A DNA stretch of 64,000 nt from Verrucomicrobiales bacterium. Lineage in GTDB: Bacteria > Verrucomicrobiota > Verrucomicrobiia > Verrucomicrobiales > DEV007. Positions 33,916-48,332 of this stretch are shown here, one piece after another. Numbering within the stretch: position 1 is the stretch's first letter; each line of letters starts with the position of its first letter. The stretch covers positions 248,001 to 312,000 of the forward strand of contig JARGPJ010000001.1 of assembly GCA_029212615.1 (NCBI GenBank). Reading direction: 5' to 3'. Position numbers and translations under genes: made by a program. The notes beneath the pieces were generated by a model. It did not search any database. It was not told the DNA's origin and worked only from the letters and a program-made list of their open reading frames with translations.

Positions 33916-34086
33916 ATTTTTAAGTCGGCCCTTTTAGCAGGTAACCGAAGGTATTTCGAAAAGCGCCATCGTTAGCCTTATGACTCCCCGACCCGCTTTA
34001 AGACAGGTCGTTCGCTTCTCTTTTCTTGTTATTTCGATGGACAGGAAGGGGCGCCACTAAAGCGGCAATTCCCCTGTTTTCAAGGG

Positions 34087-34119
34087 AAAAACGGGGTGCC
34101 GGCTCTCACCGGCACCCCG
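34087..34119 (-). terminator. Strong intrinsic terminator after rpoC
   Basis: Minus-strand reading gives an 11-bp perfect stem CGGGGTGCCGG/CCGGCACCCCG (34109-34119 with 34092-34102), a 6-base loop and then GTTTTTCCC. It ends the rpoBC transcript 22 bases after the stop codon. Confidence 0.92.
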
Positions 34120-34140
34120 CTTCCAAACTAGATAAGAGAC

Positions 34141-37100
34141 TCAGGCGAGTTCTTCGACGGTCTCCTCTTCGTCCGCAGTCTCTTCAACCGCCGGAATGAG
34201 GTCTTCCGCCTTGGCGTATTCCTCGACCTGAATGTTCCGCGTCGTGTGGAAACCACTTCCCGCAGGAATAAGGTGTCCCATGATGACGTTCTCTTTGAAT
34301 CCAAGAAGGTAATCAATCTTACCAAGCGTGGATGCCTCAGTGAGAACCCGTGTCGTGTCCTGGAAGGAAGCCGCAGAGATGAAGCTGTCCGTCTCAAGAG
34401 ACGCTTTGGTGATACCGAGAAGAACCGGCTCACCTTCAGCAGGCTTACCACCCTGTTCCACGATGTCAGCATTGATTGCCTCGAAATTAGCCTTCTCGAT
34501 TTGATCACCCCAGAGGAACTGCGTATCGCCCGGATCTGTGATCCGAATCTTACGAAGCATCTGGCGAATGATGATCTCGATGTGCTTATCGTTGATCTCA
34601 ACACCCTGGAGACGGTAAACGTCCTGAACCTCGCTAACGAGGTGTTCCATGAGCGCGTGTGGCCCTAAAATCTCAAGAATGTCATGCGGGATGACCGCTC
34701 CTTCAGTCAGCTTCTGGCCTTTATGGACGGTATCACCCGGCTGGATGAGATAATGCTTACCCAGTGGGATAAGGTGCTCTTCCTGTTCACCGGTGTCCGG
34801 ATCAGTGACGAGAAGCTTACGCTTCGCACGAACCGTTCCACCGAGTGAAACCTCACCGTCGATCTTAGCGATCTCAGCAACTTCTTTCGGCTTCCGTGCT
34901 TCGAAAAGCTCAGCAACACGCGGAAGACCACCGGTAATATCCTTTGTCTCGGAAACCTTACGCGGCGTCTTCGCCAGCTGACCACCACCGTCCACTTTCT
35001 GACCTTCCTTCACCGAGAGGTGAGCACCGGTCGGAATAGAGTAGGTCGCAAGCTCGTCACCCGACTTCGGATCAACGATGAGAATCTGCGGGTGCAGGTC
35101 CTCTTTGTGCTCAATCACAACCAATCCCTTGGTATTCGTTTCCTTATCGATCTCAGTGTCGAGCGTAATGCCCTGAATCATGTCGCGGAAGACGATCTTA
35201 CCGGCTTTCTCCGTGATGACTGGAACACTGTAGGGATCCCATGTCGCCAAGGTCTCGCCTTTCTTGATCTCTGCATTGTCAGGAATCCGAATTTCCGATC
35301 CACTGACGACATTGTATGACTCAAGCTCGATACCATCTTTGCCATGGATCGAAATCGTTCCATTCTTGTTCAGCGCGACGAAAGTCTTGTCAGGTGTCTC
35401 AACCGTTCTCAGGTTGTTGTAGTGAACGACACCCTTGGCTTTCACCTTAATAATCGGCTGCTTGAATGTTCCTGAAGCAACACCACCCACGTGGAAAGTA
35501 CGCATCGTGAGCTGTGTTCCCGGCTCACCGATGGACTGTGCGGCAATAATTCCGACTGCCTCACCATCTTTCGCCATGACATTGGTTGCGAGGTTCATGC
35601 CGTAGCACTTCGCACAACAACCGCGTCGGCTTTCACAGGTAAGAACCGAACGGATCTTCAGCTGTTCGTGACCGATATTGTAAAGCTTAAGTGCGACATC
35701 TTCGTCGATCATGTCACCCGGCTTCACGACCGTCTCATCTCCGTTGACTACTTTCTCAGCGGCAACACGACCGTAGATTCGAGTCTTCAGATCAACCACT
35801 TCCTCATCACCCTCGTAGATCGACTTCACGGTAATTCCGTTCGCCGTTCCACAATCAGTTTCGGTAATGATCACATCCTGAGCCACATCAACCAACTTAC
35901 GGGTCATGTAGCCTGAGTCAGCCGTCTTAAGCGCGGTATCCGCAAGTCCCTTACGGGCACCGTGCGTCGAGATGAAATACTCGAGAACGGAAAGACCGGA
36001 ACGGAAGTTCGAAATAATCGGACGTTCAATAATCTCACCGGAAGGCTTAGCCATGAGACCTCGCATGCCGGAAAGCTGCTTAATCTGTTGACGGTTACCA
36101 CGGGCCCCGGAATCGACCATCATGAAGAGCGGGCTCGGAAGGTCCTTACCATCATTGTGCTCAATCGTGCGGAAAAGTGCCTTCGTGATCTCGTCACCGG
36201 CGTGAGTCCAGATATCAACGATCTTGTTGTATCGCTCCTTATTGGTGATGACACCGGCACGATACTGATCATTCGCCTTCTGAACCTCTGCAGTTGCCTG
36301 GGCAACCTCCGTTTCTTTCTCGTCAGGAATGATCATGTCGAAGATACCGACAGAAATTCCGGAGCGGGAAGCTTCTTTGAAACCGAGAGACTTAAGCAAG
36401 TCGAGAGACTTCACGGTGCCGTCCTGACCAGCGGTCTGGTAACAACGCCAAATGATGTCCGAGAGCTGTTTCTTACCAGCCGTCTCATTGAAAAAACCGA
36501 GCTCTTCAGGCCAAATTTCGTTGAAACGCACACGACCTGCGGTCGTGATAAGAATCTTGCGCTCCGTATCTCCGTAGCGACGACCTTCGGTGCCGAAATC
36601 CGGGTTCCGCATGCGGATCGGATCATGCATGTCGATCGAGCGGTTTGCGACCGCAAATTCGACTTCGGAAGTATCAGCAAACAAAGGAAGTGTCTGCTCC
36701 TTGTCCGGATCACGGAGAGGAATCTGACGGCAGTAGGTCAGGAAGTAACTACCGAGAGTAATATCCTGAGAAGGCGTCGTGATCGGCTTACCACTCGAAG
36801 GAGTGAAGATGTTGTTCGGAGCCAGCATGAGCATGCGTGCTTCCATTTGCGCCTCAACGGAAAGAGGCACGTGAACCGCCATCTGGTCTCCATCAAAGTC
36901 AGCGTTATACGCCGTGCAAACAAGTGGGTGAACGCGAATCGCAGACCCCTCAATGAGAACAGGCTCGAATGCCTGAATTGAAAGGCGGTGAAGAGTCGGC
37001 GCACGGTTCAGGAGAACCGGATGCCCCTTGGTAACTTCTTCAAGAATATCCCAAACCTCAGGCGTCTTGCGCTCGATGAGCTTCTTCGCACTGCGAACCG

Positions 37101-38304
37101 TGTGAACATATCCCAGCTCCTTGAGTCGACGAATGATGAATGGCTCGAACAGAACGAGAGCCATTTTCTTCGGAAGACCGCACTGGTGAAGACCGAGGTC
37201 CGGTCCAATCACGATGACGGAACGCCCGGAGTAATCAACACGCTTACCGAGAAGGTTCTGACGGAAACGTCCACCCTTACCTTTGAGCATATCGGAAAGA
37301 GATTTAAGCGCACGGTTTCCGGCTCCTGTCACGGCGCGTCCATGACGACCGTTATCAAAAAGGGCGTCAACCGCCTCCTGAAGCATGCGTTTCTCGTTTC
37401 GGATAATCACATCAGGAGTCTTCAGTTGAAGAAGATTCTTGAGACGGTTGTTCCGGTTGATGACACGTCGATAGAGATCGTTCAGGTCGGACGTCGCAAA
37501 ACGACCGCCTTCAAGTGGAACGAGAGGACGAAGATCAGGAGGAATAACAGGAAGCACCTCAAGAATCATCCATTCAGGACGAGTCTTCGAGTAGTGGAAT
37601 CCCTGAGCAAGCTTGAGTCGCTTCGCCAGCTTCTTTCGAACCTGCTTCGAGCGGGTTTTACCCATGGCCTCTTCCAACTCGACAATAACGTCGGGAAGAT
37701 TAATACGGCTGAGGAGGTCACGGACGGCTTCCGCACCCATACCGGCCTGGAAGTCATTCACCCCGTACTCTTCCTCCGCATCGCGGAATTCGAGTTCCGT
37801 CAGAAGCTGACCCGGCTCGAGCGGTGTACTTCCCGGCTCGATAACAATGTAATCTTCGTAGTAGATGACGCGCTCCAGCTGGCGGGCACTCATGTCGAGC
37901 ATGAGACCGATGCGTGAAGGCATGCACTTGTAAAACCAGATGTGGCTGACAGCGACAGCAAGCTCGATGTGCCCCATCCGCTCACGACGAACGCGGCTGA
38001 GGGTCACTTCGACACCACAACGGTCACAGACGGTGCCCTTGTGTTTGATTCGCTTGTATTTTCCGCAGGCACACTCCCAGTCCTTGGTAGGACCGAAGAT
38101 GCGTTCGCAGAAAAGACCGCCTTTTTCAGGCTTGAAGGTCCGGTAGTTAATTGTTTCCGGATTCTTCACTTCTCCGCGACTCCAGGCACGAATCGTTTCA
38201 GGATTCGCGACCGTAATGCGGACGTGGTCGAAACTGTCGGACTTGCGTTCAAGACCGAAGATTTCGTCCAGATGGGTTTCAGAGCTGAGTGTTGGGACTG
38301 ACAC
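34141..38304 (-). CDS. rpoC: DNA-directed RNA polymerase subunit beta'
   Basis: It is the catalytic large subunit of RNA polymerase. The zinc ribbon [20 protein letters not shown] lies near residue 70, the active-site Mg loop [12 protein letters not shown] near 460, and the second zinc site [11 protein letters not shown] near 890. At 1,387 residues it matches the proteobacterial-like length without the large lineage insertions of cyanobacteria. The acidic C terminus ([14 protein letters not shown]) is typical. It follows rpoB by 47 bases. Confidence 0.98.
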
Positions 38305-38351
38305 GGTACTAATGGGCTAAGGTTCGGAAAGGTGGACTGAAAAAAGGAGGA

Positions 38352-41300
38352 TTAAATATTGATCGCAAGGCTGTCGGAAAGGATGTCTTCCGGGGAGCGC
38401 TCGGATGAGCCGACGCGAACGTCGAGACCGAGACTCTGCATCTCTTTGATCAACACGTTGAATGACTCAGGGGTTCCTGCGTCGAGGGTGTTATCCCCTT
38501 TCACAATGGACTCGTAAATTCGAGTTCGACCCTGAACATCATCGGACTTAACCGTGAGAAGTTCCTGCAAGGTGTAGGCGGCGCCATAGGCTTCAAGAGC
38601 CCAGACTTCCATCTCACCAAATCGCTGTCCACCATACTGGGCTTTACCACCCAGAGGCTGCTGAGTCACCAGCGAGTATGGACCGACCGCACGAGCGTGG
38701 ATCTTGTCCTGAACGAGGTGACCGAGCTTCAGCATGTAAATGATACCAACGACGATATCCTGATAAAAGGCCTCACCGGTTCGACCATCGTAGAGAGTCG
38801 ATTTACCGTTGGTGCCGATCCATTCAAATCCTTCAGTCGCTTTCGCTTCTTCCAGATACTCGACAATCTGCGCCTCGGGAATACCGTCAAACACGGGAGT
38901 CGCGACCTTGAAGCCAAGAGCTTTCGCAGCTACTCCAAGGTGAGTCTCGAGCATCTGCCCGACGTTCATTCGGCTCGGAACACCGAGTGGGTTCAGACAA
39001 ATATCGATCGGTGTTCCGTCTTCGAGGAATGGCATGTCCTCTTCAGGAACGATCGTTGCGACAACCCCTTTGTTACCGTGGCGACCCGCCATTTTGTCAC
39101 CGACAGAAAGCTTGCGCTTCTTGGCGACGTAGACTTTGACCTCCTTGATGACGCCCGGGTCGACCTCATCACCGGATTCGATCCGGTCGAGTTGGCGTTC
39201 CCGCTCCATGTCGATGTCAGCAAACTTCTGCTCGTAGCTCGAAATAATGTCGAGGATCTTGTTACGGATCGGACTCGGATCAATTTCAACATTGGAGTAA
39301 TTATCAGCAAGCTTACGAAGAAGCGTCTTCGTGATTTTACGGTTCGCAGGGATGATGATCTCACCGGTGCGTCCGTTGACGACATCGAGCGGAATTTTTT
39401 CGCCGAGAAGGACATCGGAAAGCTTTTCCGTGAGCTGCTCAGTAAGCTCTTCCTGACGACGCCTGTGCTCGTCAATGATTTGCTTCTGCTGCTTCTGCTG
39501 CTCCTTGGGATCAAGCTTCTCTTTAGAAGTCGAGTTACGGGAAGAAACCCGGACATCCATGACAATACCCACACAACCCGATGGAACCCGGAGCGAAGTG
39601 TCTTTCACGTCAGCCGCTTTCTCACCGAAGATGGCGCGAAGGAGGCGCTCTTCCGGAGCCAGCTCAGTTTCGCTCTTCGGCGTGATCTTACCGACAAGAA
39701 TGTCACCGGGCTTCACTTCTGCACCGACCCGGATAACGCCGTCAGGACCGAGATCCTTGAGCGCTTCTTCACCGACGTTTGGAATATCACGAGTGATCTC
39801 CTCAGGACCGAGCTTGGTGTCACGGGCCCCGATGTTAAACTCATCAACGTGGATCGAAGTGTAGACGTCCTCTTTCACAATGCGCTCAGAGATGACGATG
39901 GCATCCTCGAAGTTGTATCCGTTCCAGGGCATGAAAGCGACCAGCACATTCTTACCGAGTGCGAGCTCACCATTTTCGGTGTTCGGTCCGTCTGCAAGCA
40001 CGGTACCGGCCTTTACCTTGTCCCCACGGAAGACGATCGGCTTCTGATTGATGCAGGTTCCGGCGTTCGAACGCATGAACTTGCGAAGAGGATAAACATA
40101 GGTGCCATTCTCAGGATCACTCTTCAGCTTGAGAGGATTCGTGAGAAATTGCGCCTCGGAGCATGGAAGCTCGCCGTCCTTCGTAATCACGATGATCTCA
40201 GCCGTGGCTGCCGCGATCGTTCCGTTACCCTCAGCAACGACAACGGCGCGTGAATCACGGGCAACCTTTCCCTCCATCCCCGTGCCAATGTAAGGCGACT
40301 CGGAAACGAGGAGAGGAACCCCCTGACGTTGCATGTTTGAACCCATGAGCGCGCGGTTCGCATCATCGTGCTCAAGGAATGGAATCAGACTCGCAGCGAC
40401 TGAAACAAGCTGCTTCGGAGAAACATCCATGTAGGTCGATTCAGTCGGGACCACTTCGATAAATTCGCCGAGATGTCGTACTGTAATCAGTTCAGTAAGG
40501 AAATTACCTTTCTCATCAATCGGGTTATTCGCCTGGGCAATAAGGTAGCTTTCCTCCTGATCGGCCGTGAGGTAATCAATCTTCTTGGAAACCTTGCCTT
40601 TAATGATACGGCGGTAAGGAGTCTCAATGAAACCAAACTCGTTGATCCGGGCATAACAACTCATTGAGTTAATCAGACCAATGTTTGGTCCCTCCGGAGT
40701 CTCAATCGGGCAGATACGACCGTAGTGGGACGGGTGGACATCTCGAACTTCGAATCCGGCACGATCACGGTTCAGACCACCGGGTCCGAGCGCGGAAAGA
40801 CGACGCTTGTGAGTCAACTCGGACAAGGGGTTGATCTGATCCATGAACTGACTCAACTGAGAACGGCCGAAGAAGTCACGGACAACGGCAGCCAGCGCTT
40901 TTGGATTCACCAACTTCGAAGGCGTCATGCCATCGAGGTTAATGTCGAACAAAGTCATGCGCTCTTTGACGAGACGCTCGGTACGGGCAAGACCGACGCG
41001 GCACTGGTTGGCGAGAAGCTCACCTACTGCACGAATACGACGACTACCAAGGTGATCGATATCATCAAGGACACCTTCTCCCCGGCGAAGGCCGAAGAGG
41101 TAGGACATCGCAGCGATGAAGTCATCATGAGTGATGACGCGCTCATTCTCGTCGACCGGAAGACCAAGCTTCTGGTTGATCTTGTAACGTCCCACACGAG
41201 TGAGGTCGTATTTCTTAGGATCAAAGAAAAGTCGCTTCAGAAGCGCACGGGCATTAGCCACGGTTGGTGGATCACCAGGGCGAAGACGACGATAAATATC

Positions 41301-42206
41301 TTTCAACGCCTCCTCTTCGTTACAGGCGGGATCTTTCTTCAGCGACTTGATGAGAAGATCATCATGAGAAGTTGTCACCACTGGAAGAGACTTAACCCCG
41401 AGACCGTGAAGCTGGGCAATAACCGCTTCAGTAAGCGGCTCGTATGCCTTCGCCACAATCATATCACCATCGCAAACGTCTTCAAAAATGACCTTATTTG
41501 CGAGTTCCGCCTCATCCATCTTCGGATCGACCTTCAACTTATCGATATCGAAGAACTGACGAATGATGTCTTCGTCGGTCGGGTAACCGATCGCGCGCAG
41601 GAACGTCGTCGCGAGGAACTTACGACGGCGGCGGCGACGGTCGAGGTAAACATAAAGCAAGTCGTTCGTATCGAACTGCACTTCCATCCAGGAACCACGG
41701 TCAGGAATGATGCGGAAACCGTAAAGAGTTTTACCATTGAGGTGAAGGTTCGTCTCGAAGCAAACACCGGGTGAACGGTGAAGCTGGCTGACAACAACAC
41801 GCTCAGCACCATTGATGACGAAGGTTCCGCGGAGAGTCATCATCGGAAGCTCACCCATGTAAACACGTTCCTCTTTCGTTCCCGACTCATCCGTGAGCGC
41901 GAAGGTCACATAAAGAGGAGCACTGAATGTCTCACCATCGCGAAGGGCTTCGAGAGCCGTCAACTTAGGCTCACCGACTTCGTAACGGGAAAAATCGAGC
42001 GTAAACTTCTCGTCATAACTCTGAATAGGGAAAACCTCCTGAAACACAGACTGAAGTCCCGTCGATACTCGATCAGTAGGTGCGACCTCCTGTTGCAGAA
42101 ACTCTTTATAGGAATCGAGTTGGACCTCAATGAGGTTAGGCGTGTCGACCGCCTCTTCGATCTCCCCGAAATACTTACGTTCAAGCTTCTTAGCTGCTGC
42201 TGACAT
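38352..42206 (-). CDS. rpoB: DNA-directed RNA polymerase subunit beta
   Basis: It forms the other jaw of the RNA polymerase cleft and the rifampicin pocket. The rifampicin region reads [20 protein letters not shown] and is of the sensitive type (Asp, His and Ser positions intact; position 529-531 equivalent LSALGPGGL). Other marks are [15 protein letters not shown] and [12 protein letters not shown], and the C terminus [16 protein letters not shown]. At 1,284 residues it is full length. The 314-base spacer from rplL holds two RNA hairpins described separately. Confidence 0.98.
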
Positions 42207-42338
42207 GTTGGGCGTGGTAGTTATGTGTAAAAAGTCGAATTAGCGGCTGCGGCCTTCCTTTCTTTCAACGTCGGATCGTGATTTCCGTACACGACAAAAC
42301 GTTGATAGGCTGGAAGCCCGTCCGTCTAACAACCGCAA

Positions 42339-42382
42339 GACGACGAAGCCCGGCCGCTTCTAAGCAACCGGGATTCGACGTC
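42339..42382 (-). other. Long imperfect hairpin in the rplL-rpoB spacer
   Basis: Three helical blocks pair in register: GACG/CGTC, CGAA/TTCG and CCCGG/CCGGG, separated by single A/A and G/A mismatches. An inner GCTT/AAGC closes the tip. The element spans 44 bases, 133 bases before the rpoB start. In E. coli an RNase III site lies in the same spacer; the same role here is inference. Confidence 0.55.
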
Positions 42383-42462
42383 TAAACTAAATTTGCGATG
42401 ACTTGGATGACACTTGGTCTGCTGTGATTACGGTTCAGTATCAGTATTTATTAAATAAATTT

Positions 42463-42507
42463 GAGAAAAAGTTCGATCCGCAGCGGGAAATCCACCGCGG
42501 ATCGAAC
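42463..42507 (-). terminator. Attenuator-like intrinsic terminator between rplL and rpoB
   Basis: Minus-strand reading gives a perfect 11-bp stem GTTCGATCCGC/GCGGATCGAAC (42497-42507 with 42471-42481), a 15-base loop and then TTTTTCTC. It lies 14 bases past the rplL stop and upstream of rpoB, where E. coli has a partial terminator that lowers rpoBC expression relative to the ribosomal proteins. Confidence 0.85.
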
Positions 42508-42520
42508 CGTAAATCCTCGT

Positions 42521-42901
42521 TTACTTGAGTTCGATGGTCGCACCAGCTTCTTCAAGCTTGGACTTCATCTCCTCAGCTTCGTCCTTGGAAGCGCCCTCTT
42601 TGAGTGGTGCAGGAGCACTCTCAACAAGCTTCTTCGCGTCAGCAAGACCAAGACCGGCAACCGCTTCGCGGACCGCCTTAATTACTGCAATCTTATTCTC
42701 ACCGAAGGAAGTGATCATCACGTCAAAGGAGTCTTTCTCCTCTGCCGCTGCTTCACCGCCACCAGCAGGACCAGCGACGGCCACGGCTGCAGGTGCTGCG
42801 GCGCTAACGCCCCACTTTTCTTCGAGAGCTTTAACAAGGTCAGCAACCTCAAGGACAGTAAGTCCGCTCAACTGTTCTACTAATGTATCTGTATCTGCCA
42901 T
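42521..42901 (-). CDS. rplL: 50S ribosomal protein L7/L12
   Basis: It is the multicopy stalk protein that recruits translation GTPases. Start at ATG 42901 (MADTDT), since the 14 extra codons up to 42943 lie in the spacer; this gives 126 residues. The N-terminal dimerisation helix ([20 protein letters not shown]), an Ala/Gly/Pro hinge (about 40-60) and the C-terminal domain ([20 protein letters not shown]) are present. It is the last ribosomal gene before the attenuator. Confidence 0.97.
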
Positions 42902-42998
42902 TTTTTTAGTTGGGTATCGCCGCGACGGAAAGCGTTCCGACAATTAAGTTGCTGCGCTCAGCATTCGGCAAGGAACCCGGTTTGTTTTTTGGATAAGC

Positions 42999-43023
42999 GG
43001 GCCACTCATTGAAAGTGACCCGA
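42999..43023 (-). other. RNA hairpin in rplJ-rplL spacer
   Basis: Minus strand: CGGGTCACT pairs with AGTGGCCCG (9 bp, one G-T) around a 7-base loop, 16 bases after the rplJ stop. No T tract follows, so it is not a terminator; it may affect mRNA stability or processing between L10 and L12. Confidence 0.45.
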
Positions 43024-43039
43024 AAGTATAAAAGGTGAA

Positions 43040-43552
43040 TTATCCCTGATCGGCTTTTGCCTGAAGGACACGGGCAACAGATGAACCCGGCTCGTTGAGG
43101 ACCCGGGCAAGCATTGTGCCGGGCTGATTGAGAACTCCGAGAAGAGTCGCCTGAAGAACTTCCATCGGCGGAAGATCAGCGAGCGCCTTCACTTTCGCTT
43201 CATCGAGGAGCTCACCATCGAGCACTCCACCGCGAATACCGGGCTTCTCATTTTCTTTTGCAAAATCCTTCAGCGCCTTCGCTGCCGCACAAACATCGCT
43301 TTCGCCAGTGACGACCGCGGTTTGACCGGTAAGGAATTCGCTTAGACCCTCAGGATACTCAGCGCTGTTAGCCGCCTGGCGAACAAAGGTGTTCTTAGCG
43401 ACCTGAAACTTCGCTCCCTGAGCTTTGAGACGCTTTCGCAAATCTTCAAACTGAGGAACCGTCATGCCTGAATAATCAGCCACGAGGAGAAATGGGGATT
43501 CGTTGATCTTGGTCAGGATCTCGTCAATAATGACCTGCTTGACTTCTTTCAT
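43040..43552 (-). CDS. rplJ: 50S ribosomal protein L10
   Basis: It anchors L7/L12 dimers to the 50S stalk. The start MKEVKQVIIDEILTKINESP, the central LLVADYSGMTVPQFEDLRKRL and the C-terminal stalk helix are typical; length is 170 residues. Only 42 bases separate it from rplA, so the long L10-binding leader seen in E. coli is not in this position. Confidence 0.97.
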   Translation of the reverse strand: MKEVKQVIIDEILTKINESPFLLVADYSGMTVPQFEDLRKRLKAQGAKFQVAKNTFVRQAANSAEYPEGLSEFLTGQTAVVTGESDVCAAAKALKDFAKENEKPGIRGGVLDGELLDEAKVKALADLPPMEVLQATLLGVLNQPGTMLARVLNEPGSSVARVLQAKADQG

Positions 43553-43594
43553 CGTCTTGAAATAGGTAAAATTTAAGTAGTAGCTACCGGCTGA

Positions 43595-44290
43595 TTAATT
43601 CCAAGCCGAGACATCAATTGTCACGCCCGGGCTCATGGTGCCCGCAAGAGCGCCATTCACGATGAAAACACCCTTGGCCGTTGCCGGACGGGCACCATTA
43701 ACTGACTCGATAACGGCACGACCGTTTTCGACGAGGTCAGCCTCTTCAAAAGAGACCTTCCCGATGGGAACGGAAATGTTCCCGTTCTTATCAAGCTTAA
43801 AGTCAACACGACCAGCCTTCACTGCCTTCACCGCACCGGCAGTATCGTCAGTCACCGTTCCCGTCTTGGGATTCGGCATAAGACCGCGAGGCCCGAGCTG
43901 CCTACCAAGCTTACGAACTTCGGACATGGCCGCCGGAGTAGCGACAACAGCGTCGAAATCCATCATACCACCTTGAACCTCTTTGATGAGAGCCTCAAAT
44001 CCAACATGATCCGCTCCGGCGTTTTTCGCCTGAGTCGCCGCATCGCCTTCCGCGAAGACAAGCACCTTAACATCCTTACCGCTACCATTAGGAAGCGGAC
44101 AAGTGCCACGGACCATTTGATCCGATTGACGGGGATCAACCCCCATGCGGAAGGTGAGAGTGACCGACTGGTCAAACTTCGGGGCCGGGAATTTCTTCAC
44201 CAGTGAAACCGCCTCTTCGATGGAGTAGACATTTTCCCTGTCTACCATCTCAGCGGCCTTAAGGTATCGCTTACTTCTGTGTTTTGCCAT
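43595..44290 (-). CDS. rplA: 50S ribosomal protein L1
   Basis: It is the L1-stalk protein controlling E-site tRNA release and, in many bacteria, a translational repressor of rplKA. The signature GRQLGPRGLMPNPKTGTVT and the TLTFRMGVDPRQSDQMVRG region are present. Length 231 residues is standard. Confidence 0.97.
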   Translation of the reverse strand: MAKHRSKRYLKAAEMVDRENVYSIEEAVSLVKKFPAPKFDQSVTLTFRMGVDPRQSDQMVRGTCPLPNGSGKDVKVLVFAEGDAATQAKNAGADHVGFEALIKEVQGGMMDFDAVVATPAAMSEVRKLGRQLGPRGLMPNPKTGTVTDDTAGAVKAVKAGRVDFKLDKNGNISVPIGKVSFEEADLVENGRAVIESVNGARPATAKGVFIVNGALAGTMSPGVTIDVSAWN

Positions 44291-44353
44291 TATATAGGGT
44301 GCAGTTCAAACGGGCGCTTAACCCTCCTGCGATTTGGATTTAACTCCGAAAAA

Positions 44354-44779
44354 TTAGTCGACGATTTCGAGACCCATCTGACGGGCCGTGCCGGCAAGGA
44401 TGCGACAGGCCATCTCCTCGTCATCAGTGTTCATGTCTTCGATCTTCACTTTAACCACCTCAAGAAGTTTGGCACGACTGAGCGTCCCAACCTTCACCTT
44501 GTGAGGCTCACCGGAACCGGAAGCAATATTTGCCGCCTTCTTGAGAAGCACCGCTGCCGGCGGCTTCTTGGTCACAAACGTGAAACTCTTATCCGCATAG
44601 ACACTGATTACGACAGGAAGAAGATCCCCTGCGCTCTGCTGTGTCTCGGCGTTGAACGCCTTACAGAACTCCATGATATTGACCCCGGCCTGACCGAGCG
44701 CCGGACCAACGGGAGGCGACGGGTTCGCCTGACCTGCAGGAATCTGCAATTTCAACTGTTTTACAACTTCTTTAGCCAT
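44354..44779 (-). CDS. rplK: 50S ribosomal protein L11
   Basis: It binds the GTPase centre of 23S rRNA. The N terminus [20 protein letters not shown] and C-terminal [10 protein letters not shown] are diagnostic. ATG 44779 (MAKEVV) gives the standard 141 residues; the ATG at 44818 is too far upstream. Confidence 0.97.
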
Positions 44780-44831
44780 CGTGCTTTCTTGTTTAAAAAT
44801 TAACTGTTTACTGATCAAACAGGATCAACCA

Positions 44832-44851
44832 CTCAACTCTACAGGGTTGAG
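44832..44851 (-). promoter_or_regulatory. Hairpin in the rplK leader
   Basis: Minus strand: CTCAAC pairs with GTTGAG around an 8-base loop, 14 bases after the nusG stop and 52 bases before rplK. In E. coli L1 binds the rplK leader to repress both genes. Whether this hairpin mimics the L1 site on 23S rRNA cannot be judged without a model search. Confidence 0.35.
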
Positions 44852-44864
44852 CAGCCCCTCCCGA

Positions 44865-45434
44865 TCAGCCATTTTCCACTTGCCAATATTCGAGGGGGAC
44901 CAGGGTCTCCCGTCCGAAAATATTCACCGATACCATGACCTCGCCCTTCTCCTCGTTGACCTCGGCGATAATTCCCGTCTGACCCTGGAAAGGACCATCA
45001 GAGACCAATACCGTATCACCAACCTCATAAGCAACCGCCGGCATCACACTGCCCTCGCGCTCCTTAATCTGAGCAAGCATCCCCTCAACCTCATGCATCG
45101 GCATTGGCATCGGGTAAGTCTTCGTTCCCGCAAAATTGATCACCCCGTCCGTTTCCTGAATAAAATACCAGGATCGATCAACGAGCGTGTTGTCATCGTG
45201 AAGCAAATGCATGTTCACGATAATGTAACCCGGGTAGAACTTGCGATTCGCCTCGCGCTTCTGCCCTGACTTAACCTCTGAGACCCTCTCCTCCGGGACA
45301 AGAACCTCGAAAATCACATCACCAAGCTCCTCTGCTTCGATGCGCCGCTCAATGCTGTCACGCACCTTCAACTCCTGTCCGGAGAGAACGTGAATCACAT
45401 ACCATTGATCTTTGGGGGCTGGAATAGTCGGCAT
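44865..45434 (-). CDS. nusG: Transcription termination/antitermination protein NusG
   Basis: It binds RNA polymerase and couples it to Rho or the ribosome. The NGN domain starts WYVIHVLSGQELKVRDSIE and contains RKFYPGYIIVNMHL; the C-terminal KOW domain reads VGDTVLVSDGPFQGQTGIIA. At 189 residues it has standard length. It follows secE by 19 bases. Confidence 0.97.
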   Translation of the reverse strand: MPTIPAPKDQWYVIHVLSGQELKVRDSIERRIEAEELGDVIFEVLVPEERVSEVKSGQKREANRKFYPGYIIVNMHLLHDDNTLVDRSWYFIQETDGVINFAGTKTYPMPMPMHEVEGMLAQIKEREGSVMPAVAYEVGDTVLVSDGPFQGQTGIIAEVNEEKGEVMVSVNIFGRETLVPLEYWQVENG

Positions 45435-45453
45435 AGCGAACGGTTACAAAAAA

Positions 45454-45669
45454 TTAAAATCCGGTGGTGAGAAAGGTCATGAACTGGCGCATCGCAAAAT
45501 CGACTGTCGCCACATAAGCCCCCAGAAGAACCATCGCAATCATGACCACAACGGTTGAGTCAATGAGCTGCTTATACTTCTTGAAGCCCTTCTCCTTAGG
45601 ATCCCACGGCCACGTAGCCTTCTTGAGCTCCGAGCGAACCTCACCAAAATATTTTCCCAGTTTGTTCAT
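45454..45669 (-). CDS. secE: Preprotein translocase subunit SecE
   Basis: It is the small essential clamp of the SecYEG channel. Single membrane helix (VVMIAMVLLGAYVATVDFAM) preceded by the amphipathic SecE helix with KYFGEVRSELKKATWP, the family signature. ATG 45669 gives 71 residues; the in-frame extension to 45741 runs into the tRNA-Trp gene. Confidence 0.95.
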   Translation of the reverse strand: MNKLGKYFGEVRSELKKATWPWDPKEKGFKKYKQLIDSTVVVMIAMVLLGAYVATVDFAMRQFMTFLTTGF

Positions 45670-45707
45670 ATCAATTTGTGAATCGGATTTCGAAGGTCGG
45701 CCAATAA

Positions 45708-45783
45708 TGGCAGGGCAGCCGAGACTCGAACTCGGAACCAACGGTTTTGGAGACCGCTACTCTACCAATTGAGCTACTACCCT
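45708..45783 (-). tRNA. trpT: tRNA-Trp (CCA anticodon), 3' CCA encoded
   Basis: The cloverleaf folds fully. The acceptor AGGGTAG pairs with CTGCCCT with one G-U, there is a D-loop with GG, the anticodon loop CTCCAAA sits on a 5-bp stem, and the T-arm loop is TTCGAGT. The discriminator is G and the CCA end is encoded (45708-45710). Its position between tuf and secE is shared with many bacteria. Confidence 0.97.
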
Positions 45784-45813
45784 ATCTAAAAAAAATTCTT
45801 CTATCGGCGGAAA

Positions 45814-45841
45814 GAGGGGAGCCGACGAATCGGCCCCCCTC
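45814..45841 (-). terminator. Second hairpin after tuf, TTCG tetraloop
   Basis: Minus strand: GAGGGG and GCCGA pair with TCGGC and CCCCTC around a TTCG tetraloop, giving 11 Watson-Crick pairs plus one G-T. TTT follows and an eight-T run lies farther on (45787-45794). It may be a back-up terminator or a 5' processing structure for the tRNA-Trp transcript. Confidence 0.65.
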
Positions 45842-45851
45842 CAACACCTAA

Positions 45852-45882
45852 ATTAAAAAGCCCGGGCAACTCAAGCCGCCCG
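45852..45882 (-). terminator. First hairpin after tuf, intrinsic terminator
   Basis: Minus strand: CGGGC pairs with GCCCG around a 10-base loop, then GGCTTTTTAATTT, 16 bases past the tuf stop. Confidence 0.65.
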
Positions 45883-45898
45883 AACCGCAATGAGATGA

Positions 45899-47083
45899 TT
45901 AGTCAAGAATCTCGGAAACACGACCCGCACCAACAGTGCGTCCACCCTCGCGAATCGCGAATCGGATCGTCTTCTCCATCGCAATTGGAGTAATCAACTC
46001 AACAGTGATAGCTACATTATCGCCAGGCATCACCATCTCAACACCTTCAGGAAGGTCAACAGAACCAGTCACATCCGTGGTACGGAAGTAGAACTGAGGA
46101 CGGTAGTTGTTGAAGAAAGGAGTGTGACGACCACCCTCATCCTTTGAAAGAACATAGACCTCAGCCTTGAACTTTTTGTGAGGAGTAATGGAACCGGGCT
46201 TAGCAATAACCTGACCACGCTCGAGCTCGTCTTTCTTAAGACCGCGAACAAGCAGACCAACATTATCACCGGCACGACCTTCGTCGAGAAGCTTACGGAA
46301 CATCTCGATGTCAGTAACCGTTGTCTTTTGAGTGTCACGAATACCGACAATCTCAACTTCTTCCATCTTCTTCACGATACCACGCTCAACACGACCGGTT
46401 GCAACCGTTCCGCGACCCTCGATCGAGAACACGTCTTCGATAGGCATAAGGAAGTCCTGATCAACAGGGCGCTCAGGAAGAGGAATATACTCATCAACAG
46501 CCTCCATAAGCTTGGCGATGTTTTCCTGATGAGTCGCATCACCCTCAAGAGCCTTGAGAGCAGAACCGCGAACGATTGGGATATCGTCACCCGGGAACTC
46601 ATACTGGCTGAGAAGCTCACGAACTTCCATCTCAACGAGATCGAGAAGCTCTTCGTCATCAACCTGATCAACCTTGTTCAGGAACACCACGAGAGCAGGA
46701 ACACCGACCTGACGGGCAAGAAGGATGTGCTCACGAGTCTGAGGCATTGGACCATCAGCAGCAGAAACCACGAGGATCCCGCCGTCCATTTGCGCCGCAC
46801 CAGTGATCATGTTCTTCACATAATCAGCGTGTCCCGGGCAGTCCACGTGTGCGTAGTGACGATTATCCGTCTCATACTCAACGTGAGCTGTTGAAATTGT
46901 AATACCGCGCTCGCGCTCCTCAGGAGCACCGTCGATCTCGTCATAGGCACGCTTCTCGGCGAAACCCTTCTCAGCGAGCGTCGTAGTGATCGCCGCGGTG
47001 AGAGTCGTCTTGCCGTGGTCAACGTGGCCGATCGTGCCCACGTTTACGTGAGGCTTGTTACGTTCGAATGATTCTTTAGCCAT
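45899..47083 (-). CDS. tuf: Translation elongation factor Tu
   Basis: It delivers aminoacyl-tRNA to the ribosome as EF-Tu-GTP. The G motifs are [21 protein letters not shown] and NKVD, with switch [15 protein letters not shown]. Domains II and III are complete ([31 protein letters not shown]). At 394 residues it has standard length. tRNA-Thr lies upstream and tRNA-Trp downstream. Confidence 0.98.
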
Positions 47084-47215
47084 TGTCGTTTGGTTTTTTT
47101 AGGTTGTTGTTGTCGTTTAAATTCGACTATCCAGCGACAGCCGGTCATTTAAACTACCGCTGCGGATTCGCTTCGTATTGGTCTCGTCTTGTTTTTTCCT
47201 GTGACTCTAAGTAGA

Positions 47216-47290
<75 letters not shown>

Positions 47291-47363
47291 CTTTCAGCAC
47301 CTTGAGCATCAGGAACTAAAAGTCCCATAACTCAGGCTGCCATTTTTGCAAAAAAGCCAATAA

Positions 47364-47404
47364 GCCTCAGGCAACCTTACCTTTCGGGAAGGGAGCTTTG
47401 AGGC
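47364..47404 (-). terminator. Structured hairpin upstream of tRNA-Thr, possible terminator
   Basis: Minus strand: GCCTCA pairs with TGAGGC, and inside it CCTT-C-CC pairs with GG-T-AAGG around a GAAA tetraloop. A six-T run follows after 8 bases (TTATTGGCTTTTTT). It may end read-through from the upstream phosphodiesterase gene or be a leader structure. Confidence 0.5.
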
Positions 47405-47498
47405 CGCAGAGCATTCCAGCAAAATTAGCCGCGAAAACTACTCGACCGGATCGATCTGTCAAAAAATTATTGCCAATTCCTTAAAAATTTCGTTGGAG

Positions 47499-47522
47499 GG
47501 CCGGAAACAGGGCGTTCCGGCC
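47499..47522 (-). terminator. Candidate terminator after the YmdB-type gene
   Basis: Minus strand: a perfect 8-bp stem GGCCGGAA/TTCCGGCC with an 8-base loop begins 4 bases past the stop. The T-rich stretch (ATTTTTAA) comes only after about 10 bases, so efficiency is doubtful. Confidence 0.55.
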
Positions 47523-47525
47523 AGC

Positions 47526-48332
47526 TCATTTTGCCTCAAGAGGCGGGATATCGCGGCTAAATCGAGTGATTTCAAGAGCCGCCCCGCTCTCTTCATCCAC
47601 TCCGATGATAGCTCCCCGGAGGCCCACAATCCCTTTCGCGACGGGGAATCGCCTCGGCATCGACGTTTTGAAACGCTCGACGATCGGCTCCACCTCGCGC
47701 CCGAGCACCGAATGCAGCGGCCCACACATGCCCGCATCCGTGAGATACGCGGTTCCCCCTTCGAAAATCTGCTCATCAGCGGTTTGAACGTGCGTATGAG
47801 TGCCCACTACTGCCGAAACAAGGCCATCGAGACATCTTCCCATCGCAATCTTCTCGCTCGTTGTTTCAGCATGGAAGTCGAGAAAAATGACTTTTACGCC
47901 CTCCTCTTCACGCAACCGGCGCGCTTCCGCCTCAGTGGCGGAGAACGGATTCTCCAAAGGCGGTTGAATAAACGTCCTCCCCTGAGCATTCATCACCGCA
48001 ACCGGCCCCTTCGATGTTTCAAGAACCATGGTGCCACCCCCCGGGGTTCCCTCCGGATAGTTCATCGGCCTCAAAACTCGGGGTTCCAGGCTGAGAAAAT
48101 CAATAATCTCAGGTTGGTCCCAGATATGATCTCCGGTCGTAATGACCGCGATACCCGCCCTCATCAAATCAATGGCAATTTTTGGAGTTATCCCGCGCCC
48201 ACCGGCAGCGTTCTCTCCATTTGCGACGATGAAATCGATCCCCTCCTCCTCTTTGATTCCCGCCAAATTCGAAATAACGGCCTTTCGGCCCGGTTCCCCG
48301 ACAATATCTCCTAGAAATAAAATCCTCAGCAT
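47526..48332 (-). CDS. TIGR00282 family metallophosphoesterase (YmdB type)
   Basis: It is a di-metal phosphodiesterase; the Bacillus homologue YmdB hydrolyses 2',3'-cyclic nucleotides or cAMP and affects biofilm and motility decisions. Metal-ligand motifs are LFLGDIVGEPGR, VANGENAAGGRGI, TTGDHIWDQ and FLDFHAETTSEK, with VVGTHTHVQTAD near the end of the active site. At 268 residues it is standard. It begins 30 bases from the divergent amidase gene. Target nucleotides here are unknown. Confidence 0.93.
   Translation of the reverse strand: MLRILFLGDIVGEPGRKAVISNLAGIKEEEGIDFIVANGENAAGGRGITPKIAIDLMRAGIAVITTGDHIWDQPEIIDFLSLEPRVLRPMNYPEGTPGGGTMVLETSKGPVAVMNAQGRTFIQPPLENPFSATEAEARRLREEEGVKVIFLDFHAETTSEKIAMGRCLDGLVSAVVGTHTHVQTADEQIFEGGTAYLTDAGMCGPLHSVLGREVEPIVERFKTSMPRRFPVAKGIVGLRGAIIGVDEESGAALEITRFSRDIPPLEAK

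Follow-up and report, generated by a model that had tools for sequence, protein, structure and literature searches.

In Escherichia coli, as at the locus described here, genes for ribosomal proteins adjoin those for RNA polymerase, yet the two products are needed in different amounts. The original report on E. coli is said to be that of Barry in 1980. According to later accounts, an attenuator in the E. coli rplL-rpoB spacer uncouples the ribosomal proteins from the polymerase subunits (PMC4670729), the same spacer is an RNase III substrate (PMC2777011), and the autogenous control of rpoBC is separate from that of rplJL (PMC10931766). L10(L12)4 is described as controlling the rplJL leader RNA autogenously in both E. 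coli and Bacillus subtilis, with a kink-turn in the B. subtilis leader (PMC10931766). In marine cyanobacteria, cluster 245 is a predicted structured rpoBC leader that its authors likened to the E. coli attenuator (PMC1242208), and Lacto-rpoB RNA (RF01709) is a structured RNA of the Lactobacillales named for rpoB (PMC2864571).

The window, i.e., the whole 64,000-nucleotide stretch of DNA that was analysed, carries on its minus strand genes in the order EF-Tu-like, secE-like, nusG, rplK, rplA, rplJ, rplL, spacer, rpoB and rpoC, the names being assigned from translations alone. The coding region of rplL (bL12; 42521..42901, minus strand), which has a single match in its own genome and is the last gene of the ribosomal-protein part, is followed by rpoB, coding for the RNA polymerase beta subunit (38352..42206, minus strand), and then by rpoC (34141-38304, minus strand). 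Since the rplL stop ends at 42521 and rpoB starts at 42206, the spacer between them is 314 nt long, and its predicted fold of -119.9 kcal/mol compares with -82.0 +/- 6.2 in 100 shuffles (z -6.1). In E. coli K-12 the spacer measures 319 nt and folds 8.0 standard deviations below its shuffles. A preliminary description of this DNA had likened the region to E. coli in place, which is borne out, and the size matches as well: the two organisms share the same spacer at nearly the same length (314 vs 319 nt), a terminator-like, attenuator-like hairpin soon after rplL (40-65 nt past the rplL stop in E. coli), and further strong structure. Within the window's genus, rplL was detected in 29 of 33 genomes, and rpoB comes after it at 28 of these 29 loci, own genome included. 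The spacer holds two hairpins, and both are RNA structures under selection, because pairing is kept in relatives with strong two-sided changes. The bacteria carrying the second of them, the element of main interest here, are mostly uncultured Verrucomicrobiales.

The rplL stop codon is separated by 12 nt of spacer from hairpin 1 (42470..42508, minus strand), a terminator-like stem of 17 bp with a 5-nt loop, followed by a U-rich tract, UUUUUCUC, read from the sequence at 42463..42470 (minus strand). The perfect 11-bp stem with TTTTTCTC named in the preliminary description is indeed there on the minus strand (42507-42497 paired with 42481-42471, and TTTTTCTC at 42470-42463), the full count of 17 bp taking in G-U pairs and the inner part. 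The shape of an E. coli-type attenuator, a GC-rich hairpin with a U-tract just after rplL, is thus found at 42508-42463, the span of hairpin 1 plus its trailing TTTTTCTC. Hairpin 1 has the most pairs among 19 terminator-like sites in 34000-48000, a number of sites that is itself not above chance (shuffles 15.3 +/- 3.5). In an alignment of 24 of the 29 same-genus hairpins (A5, hand-trimmed, with L013, L017, L019, L025 and L029 excluded), 95.1% of cells are paired and 9 of 12 pairs show two-sided changes.

The hairpin after rplL is commoner than its U-tract across the order, in the spacers sampled. All 83 spacers, from six families of the order, have a hairpin of at least 11 pairs in their first 110 nt (of 60 loci outside the genus, L062, L078, L083, L094, L110 and L118 were omitted, as their rplL end was unlocated by the script). 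In this first count, a hairpin further from rplL sometimes has more pairs than the adjoining one (e.g., L023). A stricter count, based on hairpin energy after trimming of outer A-U pairs, replaces the first count of U-tracts and finds a post-rplL hairpin at -15 kcal/mol or below in 81 of the 83; L066 and L105 fall short because their outer A-U pairs were trimmed, yet both have long hairpins by the first count. A T-run of at least 4 lies within 12 nt of hairpin 1 at 22 of 29 same-genus loci, compared with 11% of random 12-mers. Elsewhere in the window's family a T-run follows the post-rplL hairpin at 10 of 27 loci, and in other families at 4/7 (f3), 2/9 (f2), 1/8 (f4), 0/1 (f5) and 1/2 (f6), giving 40 of 83 spacers overall and 18 of 54 outside the genus. 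Given these T-run counts, the reading of hairpin 1 as a likely intrinsic terminator or attenuator, plausible from its shape, fits the window and its genus, whereas across the order the U-tract is the rarer of the two features. The attenuator put forward in the preliminary description therefore stands as to terminator shape and as to the U-run within the genus; it does not stand as a general feature, the U-tract being found at only a third of the loci beyond the genus. In the rest of the order, the rplL message may be ended or protected by other means.

Hairpin 2 (42339..42382, minus strand), the core element before rpoB, has the general form GACG-N-CRAA-U-upper stem-loop-C-UUYG-Y-YGUC, as delineated by covariation and by the covariance models R1 and R2. 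The window's own copy is a 44-nt hairpin of three blocks with two 1x1 mismatches, GACG-U-CGAA-U-upper stem-C-UUCG-U-CGUC, located on the minus strand just where the preliminary description had placed a three-block hairpin. Its stem comprises about 19 pairs, is interrupted by the two mismatches and is capped by a short loop; the hairpin ends 132 nt ahead of the rpoB start. The core is present in 27 of 28 same-genus rplL-rpoB spacers, the exception being L025 (genome G019); L013 (genome G025) has no standard core either. Among 26 same-genus sequences, 96.2% of hairpin 2 cells are paired and 9 of 19 pairs show changes on both sides; none of 500 shuffles reaches this paired percentage or the covariation score, controls slid by 1 to 3 columns are 30-52% paired, and RNAalifold recovers 17 of the pairs without a given structure. 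The 10 sequences from outside the genus, each taken from its rpoB locus, are by themselves 94.7% paired, with two-sided changes in 8 pairs, and all 37 sequences, from six genera, are 95.6% paired (11 of 19 pairs two-sided, 87 cells; slid controls 28-50%). A clean two-sided change is seen at one pair of the CGAA/UUCG block, which is G-C throughout the genus and A-U in 8 of the 10 other sequences. These figures are to be read with the selection of sequences in mind. Alignment A1 was picked by regular expression (CGAA and CUUC..GUC motifs), leaving out L017 and L025, and L017 was added by hand in A2; A3 and A4 take in every non-genus genome with a model match except G053 (10 of 11), and the finding of these 10 by a genus-built model favours kept pairs and kept core letters. 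The preliminary description had called for a covariation check on relatives. With that check now run, compensatory changes are strong in both hairpins, and the outcome it held would count against the structures, namely none in relatives, does not occur because both covary strongly.

The substitutions also identify the molecule under selection. The paired columns contain 48 G-U and 5 A-C cells in hairpin 2, and 20 G-U and 2 A-C cells in hairpin 1; as G-U on one strand is an A-C mismatch on the other, the selected molecule is for both hairpins the rpoB-sense RNA. This bears on the idea that the conserved pieces act as DNA, hairpin 2 being an operator-like inverted repeat and rpoB having its own promoter. 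A conserved block does lie between the two hairpins (42411..42455, minus strand; genus consensus AAGAAA..CTTG..CAATCGTA..AGAG.AAGTG), and a relocated rpoB in genome G025, described below, needs transcription from somewhere. The block does not score as a sigma-70-like promoter, however: such a promoter, the type scored, exceeds shuffles at p<=0.1 in only 1 of 28 loci. Its pattern occurs at 16 places in the window, where 11.9 +/- 2.9 are expected. Moreover, element lengths of 52-67, a variation of up to 15 nt, and arms that covary with a one-strand G-U preference fit RNA, and we regard a DNA function as very improbable.

Between the middle and upper blocks of hairpin 2, all 37 sequences, drawn from six genera, have U opposite C. 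The pair above this mismatch is C-G, except for U-A in three and U-G in two sequences, and the third pair below it is G-C, except for A-U in eight. Three pairs are invariant as well, two of them A-U below the mismatch and one C-G above it (A3 columns 12, 13 and 16 with their partners). The outer mismatch is looser (U-U 14, C-U 12, A-U 6, C-C 2, U-C 2 and G-U 1) and is a pair in seven sequences. The invariant U-C mismatch hints at sequence-specific recognition of hairpin 2. This would be the most direct reading, because a stem kept for pairing only would hardly fix one non-pair while others covary, although it is weakened somewhat by the kinship of the sequences, the motif-picked genus set and the genus-based search model.

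Our tentative model, which we favour while giving it somewhat less than an even chance, is a two-part control of the spacer, in which hairpin 1 ends transcripts and the core of hairpin 2 is read by an RNA-binding factor that tunes rpoBC. The rplL-rpoB spacer would allow one transcription unit to yield different amounts of ribosomal proteins and RNA polymerase. Judging from its shape, hairpin 1 with its U-tract would end a share of transcripts after rplL. Hairpin 2, which would sit in the leader of the rpoBC message, carries in its arms the invariant core (CRAA-U-YC over GR-C-UUYG), and this may be recognised by a putative cognate RNA-binding factor, most likely a protein, such as a feedback regulator or a nuclease that chooses its sequence. 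Binding of the factor would then tune rpoBC expression. Hairpin 2 cannot simply cover the start site, because it ends 132 nt before it. The structures, the transcribed strand, the conservation, the invariant mismatch and the place ahead of rpoB are direct observations, and the two hairpins probably set polymerase output separately from ribosome output.

Since an RNase III gene is present in the own genome, scoring above the curated cut-off, the main rival to this model is that hairpin 2 is a plain processing site for RNase III or a similar enzyme, which parts the rplL and rpoB messages, with the mismatches directing the cut. The make-up of hairpin 2 (about 19 pairs, two internal mismatches, a short loop) suits such a role, and the E. 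coli spacer, an RNase III substrate, offers a precedent (PMC2777011). It is the invariant core that keeps this explanation from being our first choice, for the fixed sequence round the U-C mismatch exceeds the need of a substrate chosen by length and pairing. We consider plain processing possible, though on the doubtful side.

The distribution of the element is narrow. R1, built on 27 sequences, matches 38 of 74 genomes of the window's family and 6 of 18 genera (27 of 33 genomes in the window's genus, 11 of 41 in the rest of the family), and in the other 12 genera no R1 match was found with the stricter filters. Because these 12 genera lack an R1 match, a factor and its site would have to be a lineage-specific or fast-evolving pair; the missing recognisable version in the same 12 genera also counts against a plain processing site. 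Six genus genomes are without an R1 match (G019, G025, G011, G016, G018 and G024), the last four of them with no rplL match either. The preliminary description had entertained the same logic in a distant phylum, and here the searches with R2, built on 37 sequences, give no sign of deep conservation: nothing convincing appears outside one Verrucomicrobiales family in two sets of 288 genomes, one from the order and one from the phylum, both searched with stricter filters by which weak matches are lost. In the order R2 matches 33 of 288 genomes, 31 of them in the window's family; the other two matches are weak (E 0.0014 and 0.0023), and that in G264 lies opposite a continuous open frame. In the phylum it matches 6 of 288 genomes, own included, and only the own match is convincing. 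The best of the others (G484, E 3.2e-5) was rejected, as it lies inside a 436-codon open frame, and the remaining four have E 0.0018 to 0.0094 (G331 and G530 read for open frames only); from the definition of the E-value, a search of 288 genomes should yield about three matches at E<=0.01.

Matches within genomes point to rpoB. In all 31 genomes for which both are listed, the genome-wide match and the rpoB match share contig and strand, the former being 74-164 nt ahead of the latter. The own genome has no second copy of hairpin 2 at E<=0.01, only the antisense strand of the same site, and in most genomes the second match is likewise that antisense strand, at a lower score. G061 and G062 have one further partial match each (E 0.0087 and 0.0038). 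An extra weak match in G054 (E 0.0026) is a different hairpin between two other open frames and was taken as chance. In family f4, L103, L104, L106, L109 and L110 show by eye a different GC hairpin with a U-run (UUUUU, some with GUCUC) before rpoB; these terminator-shaped hairpins take the place in the spacer expected for hairpin 2.

In two genomes of the window's own genus, G019 and G025, hairpin 2 is only degenerate and gives no model match. In G025 a long open frame other than rpoB comes after the rplL hairpin and U-tract, and rpoB is on another contig, behind open frames other than rplL. This relocated rpoB is preceded by a leader hairpin and then UUUUCUCGUCUU, too diverged for a model match. 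As rplL and rpoB are apart here and each has its own hairpin, the arrangement suggests that hairpin 1 accompanies rplL and that hairpin 2 accompanies rpoB; it could also be a misassembly in this single draft genome. The rplL-rpoB spacer of G019 (L210/L025) is 756 nt long and contains a long imperfect palindrome (GGTTTGGGCTAGTGTGGCGGCGAGCG... and its complement) unseen in the other printed spacers of the genus. In G024 (L208, 711-1298), which has no rplL match, the rpoB frame runs upstream into a small unrelated gene to form a 1416-aa open frame. The small gene presumably codes for a RelE-type protein, and the arrangement may be an assembly chimera.

Hairpin 2 might itself be a transcription signal of the rpoBC leader, acting as a further attenuator or as a hairpin pause. 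The UUUUCUCGUCUU after the leader hairpin of G025 points this way, as do the different GC hairpins with a U-run, e.g., UUUUU(GUCUC), seen by eye before rpoB in some spacers of other genera and families. In the genus, however, the upper stem is followed by CUUCGUCGUC, which is not a U-run and is itself paired in the lower stem, so that we give a transcription signal only a slim chance.

Two further segments of the rpoB leader are conserved in the genus, one containing GUGUAC (42281..42300, minus strand) and one that is A/C-rich and lies directly before the rpoB start (42207..42230, minus strand; genus consensus AGACCAACC..CAGCGCC, from which the window has diverged). The sequence directly upstream of the rpoB start shows, by eye, no Shine-Dalgarno-like stretch. 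Consensus folds of the remaining leader differed among four groups drawn by eye. A suggestive candidate for an alternative partner of the hairpin 2 3' arm is found at 42322..42327 (minus strand), AGACGG here and GACGAC in many relatives. The 3' arm, CGUCGUC, could then be shared between the 5' arm and the downstream GACGAC, making a two-state switch. The best downstream partner sits at a nearly constant offset (13-16) in 23 of 27 loci, and a second partner near the rpoB start reaches p<=0.05 in 5 of 27 (four of the five from one by-eye group). The constant offset may just reflect kinship, however; only at 2 of 27 loci is pairing with the downstream GACGAC-type partner stronger than in shuffles at p<=0.05 (p=0.25 in the window itself), this partner is weak in several, e.g., L005, L007 and L011, and pairing within hairpin 2 already explains the invariance of the arm. 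Such a switch is in our judgement improbable. A bolder version combines it with recognition: hairpin 2 would be the site at which a lineage-specific polymerase feedback regulator binds by way of the U-C mismatch, GACGAC would capture the 3' arm, and binding would switch between the two folds. If true, polymerase dosage would be under a regulatory RNA of a new class, but we consider this reading unlikely.

The compensatory changes on the sense strand and the linkage to rpoB identify hairpin 2 as a conserved structured rpoBC cis-element; as an rpoBC leader element it is new and restricted to its lineage, but its kind is known. No Rfam 15 family reaches its gathering cut-off in the window apart from two tRNAs, and in the spacer the only Rfam candidate was ohsC, at 21.2 bits against a cut-off of 50. 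Lacto-rpoB RNA, which is located upstream of rpoB, has no Rfam match in the window, nor in the spacer up to E=1. The L10 leader has no Rfam match in the window at the gathering score; leaders bound by L10(L12)4 precede rplJ, whereas the window's element sits after rplL in the same operon. The element is unnamed in the literature searched, which covers few subscription journals.

In comparison with E. coli, the likeness is one of layout only. R2 does not match the E. coli locus (L211) up to E=1, and by this model there is no recognisable similarity in sequence or structure to the E. coli RNase III spacer; common descent of the two spacer sequences is not seen. Because the layout is common with E. 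coli and the sequence is not, the parallel is an analogy and not membership. Unlike in E. coli, the window's second hairpin has an invariant sequence core, and whereas attenuation and cleavage are established in the E. coli literature, for the window's region they would be predictions. Selection on the dosage of ribosome and polymerase may possibly be common to both phyla, one of the options that the preliminary description had raised. The cyanobacterial rpoBC leader likewise lies between rpl genes and rpoBC, in a different phylum, and is likened here by description alone. Overall, what the window contributes is a well-supported RNA element absent from Rfam 15, with a testable signature in its invariant U-C mismatch within a covarying stem. 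Control in the gap between rplL and rpoB, already known in E. coli and suggested for cyanobacteria, thereby gains a case from a different phylum.
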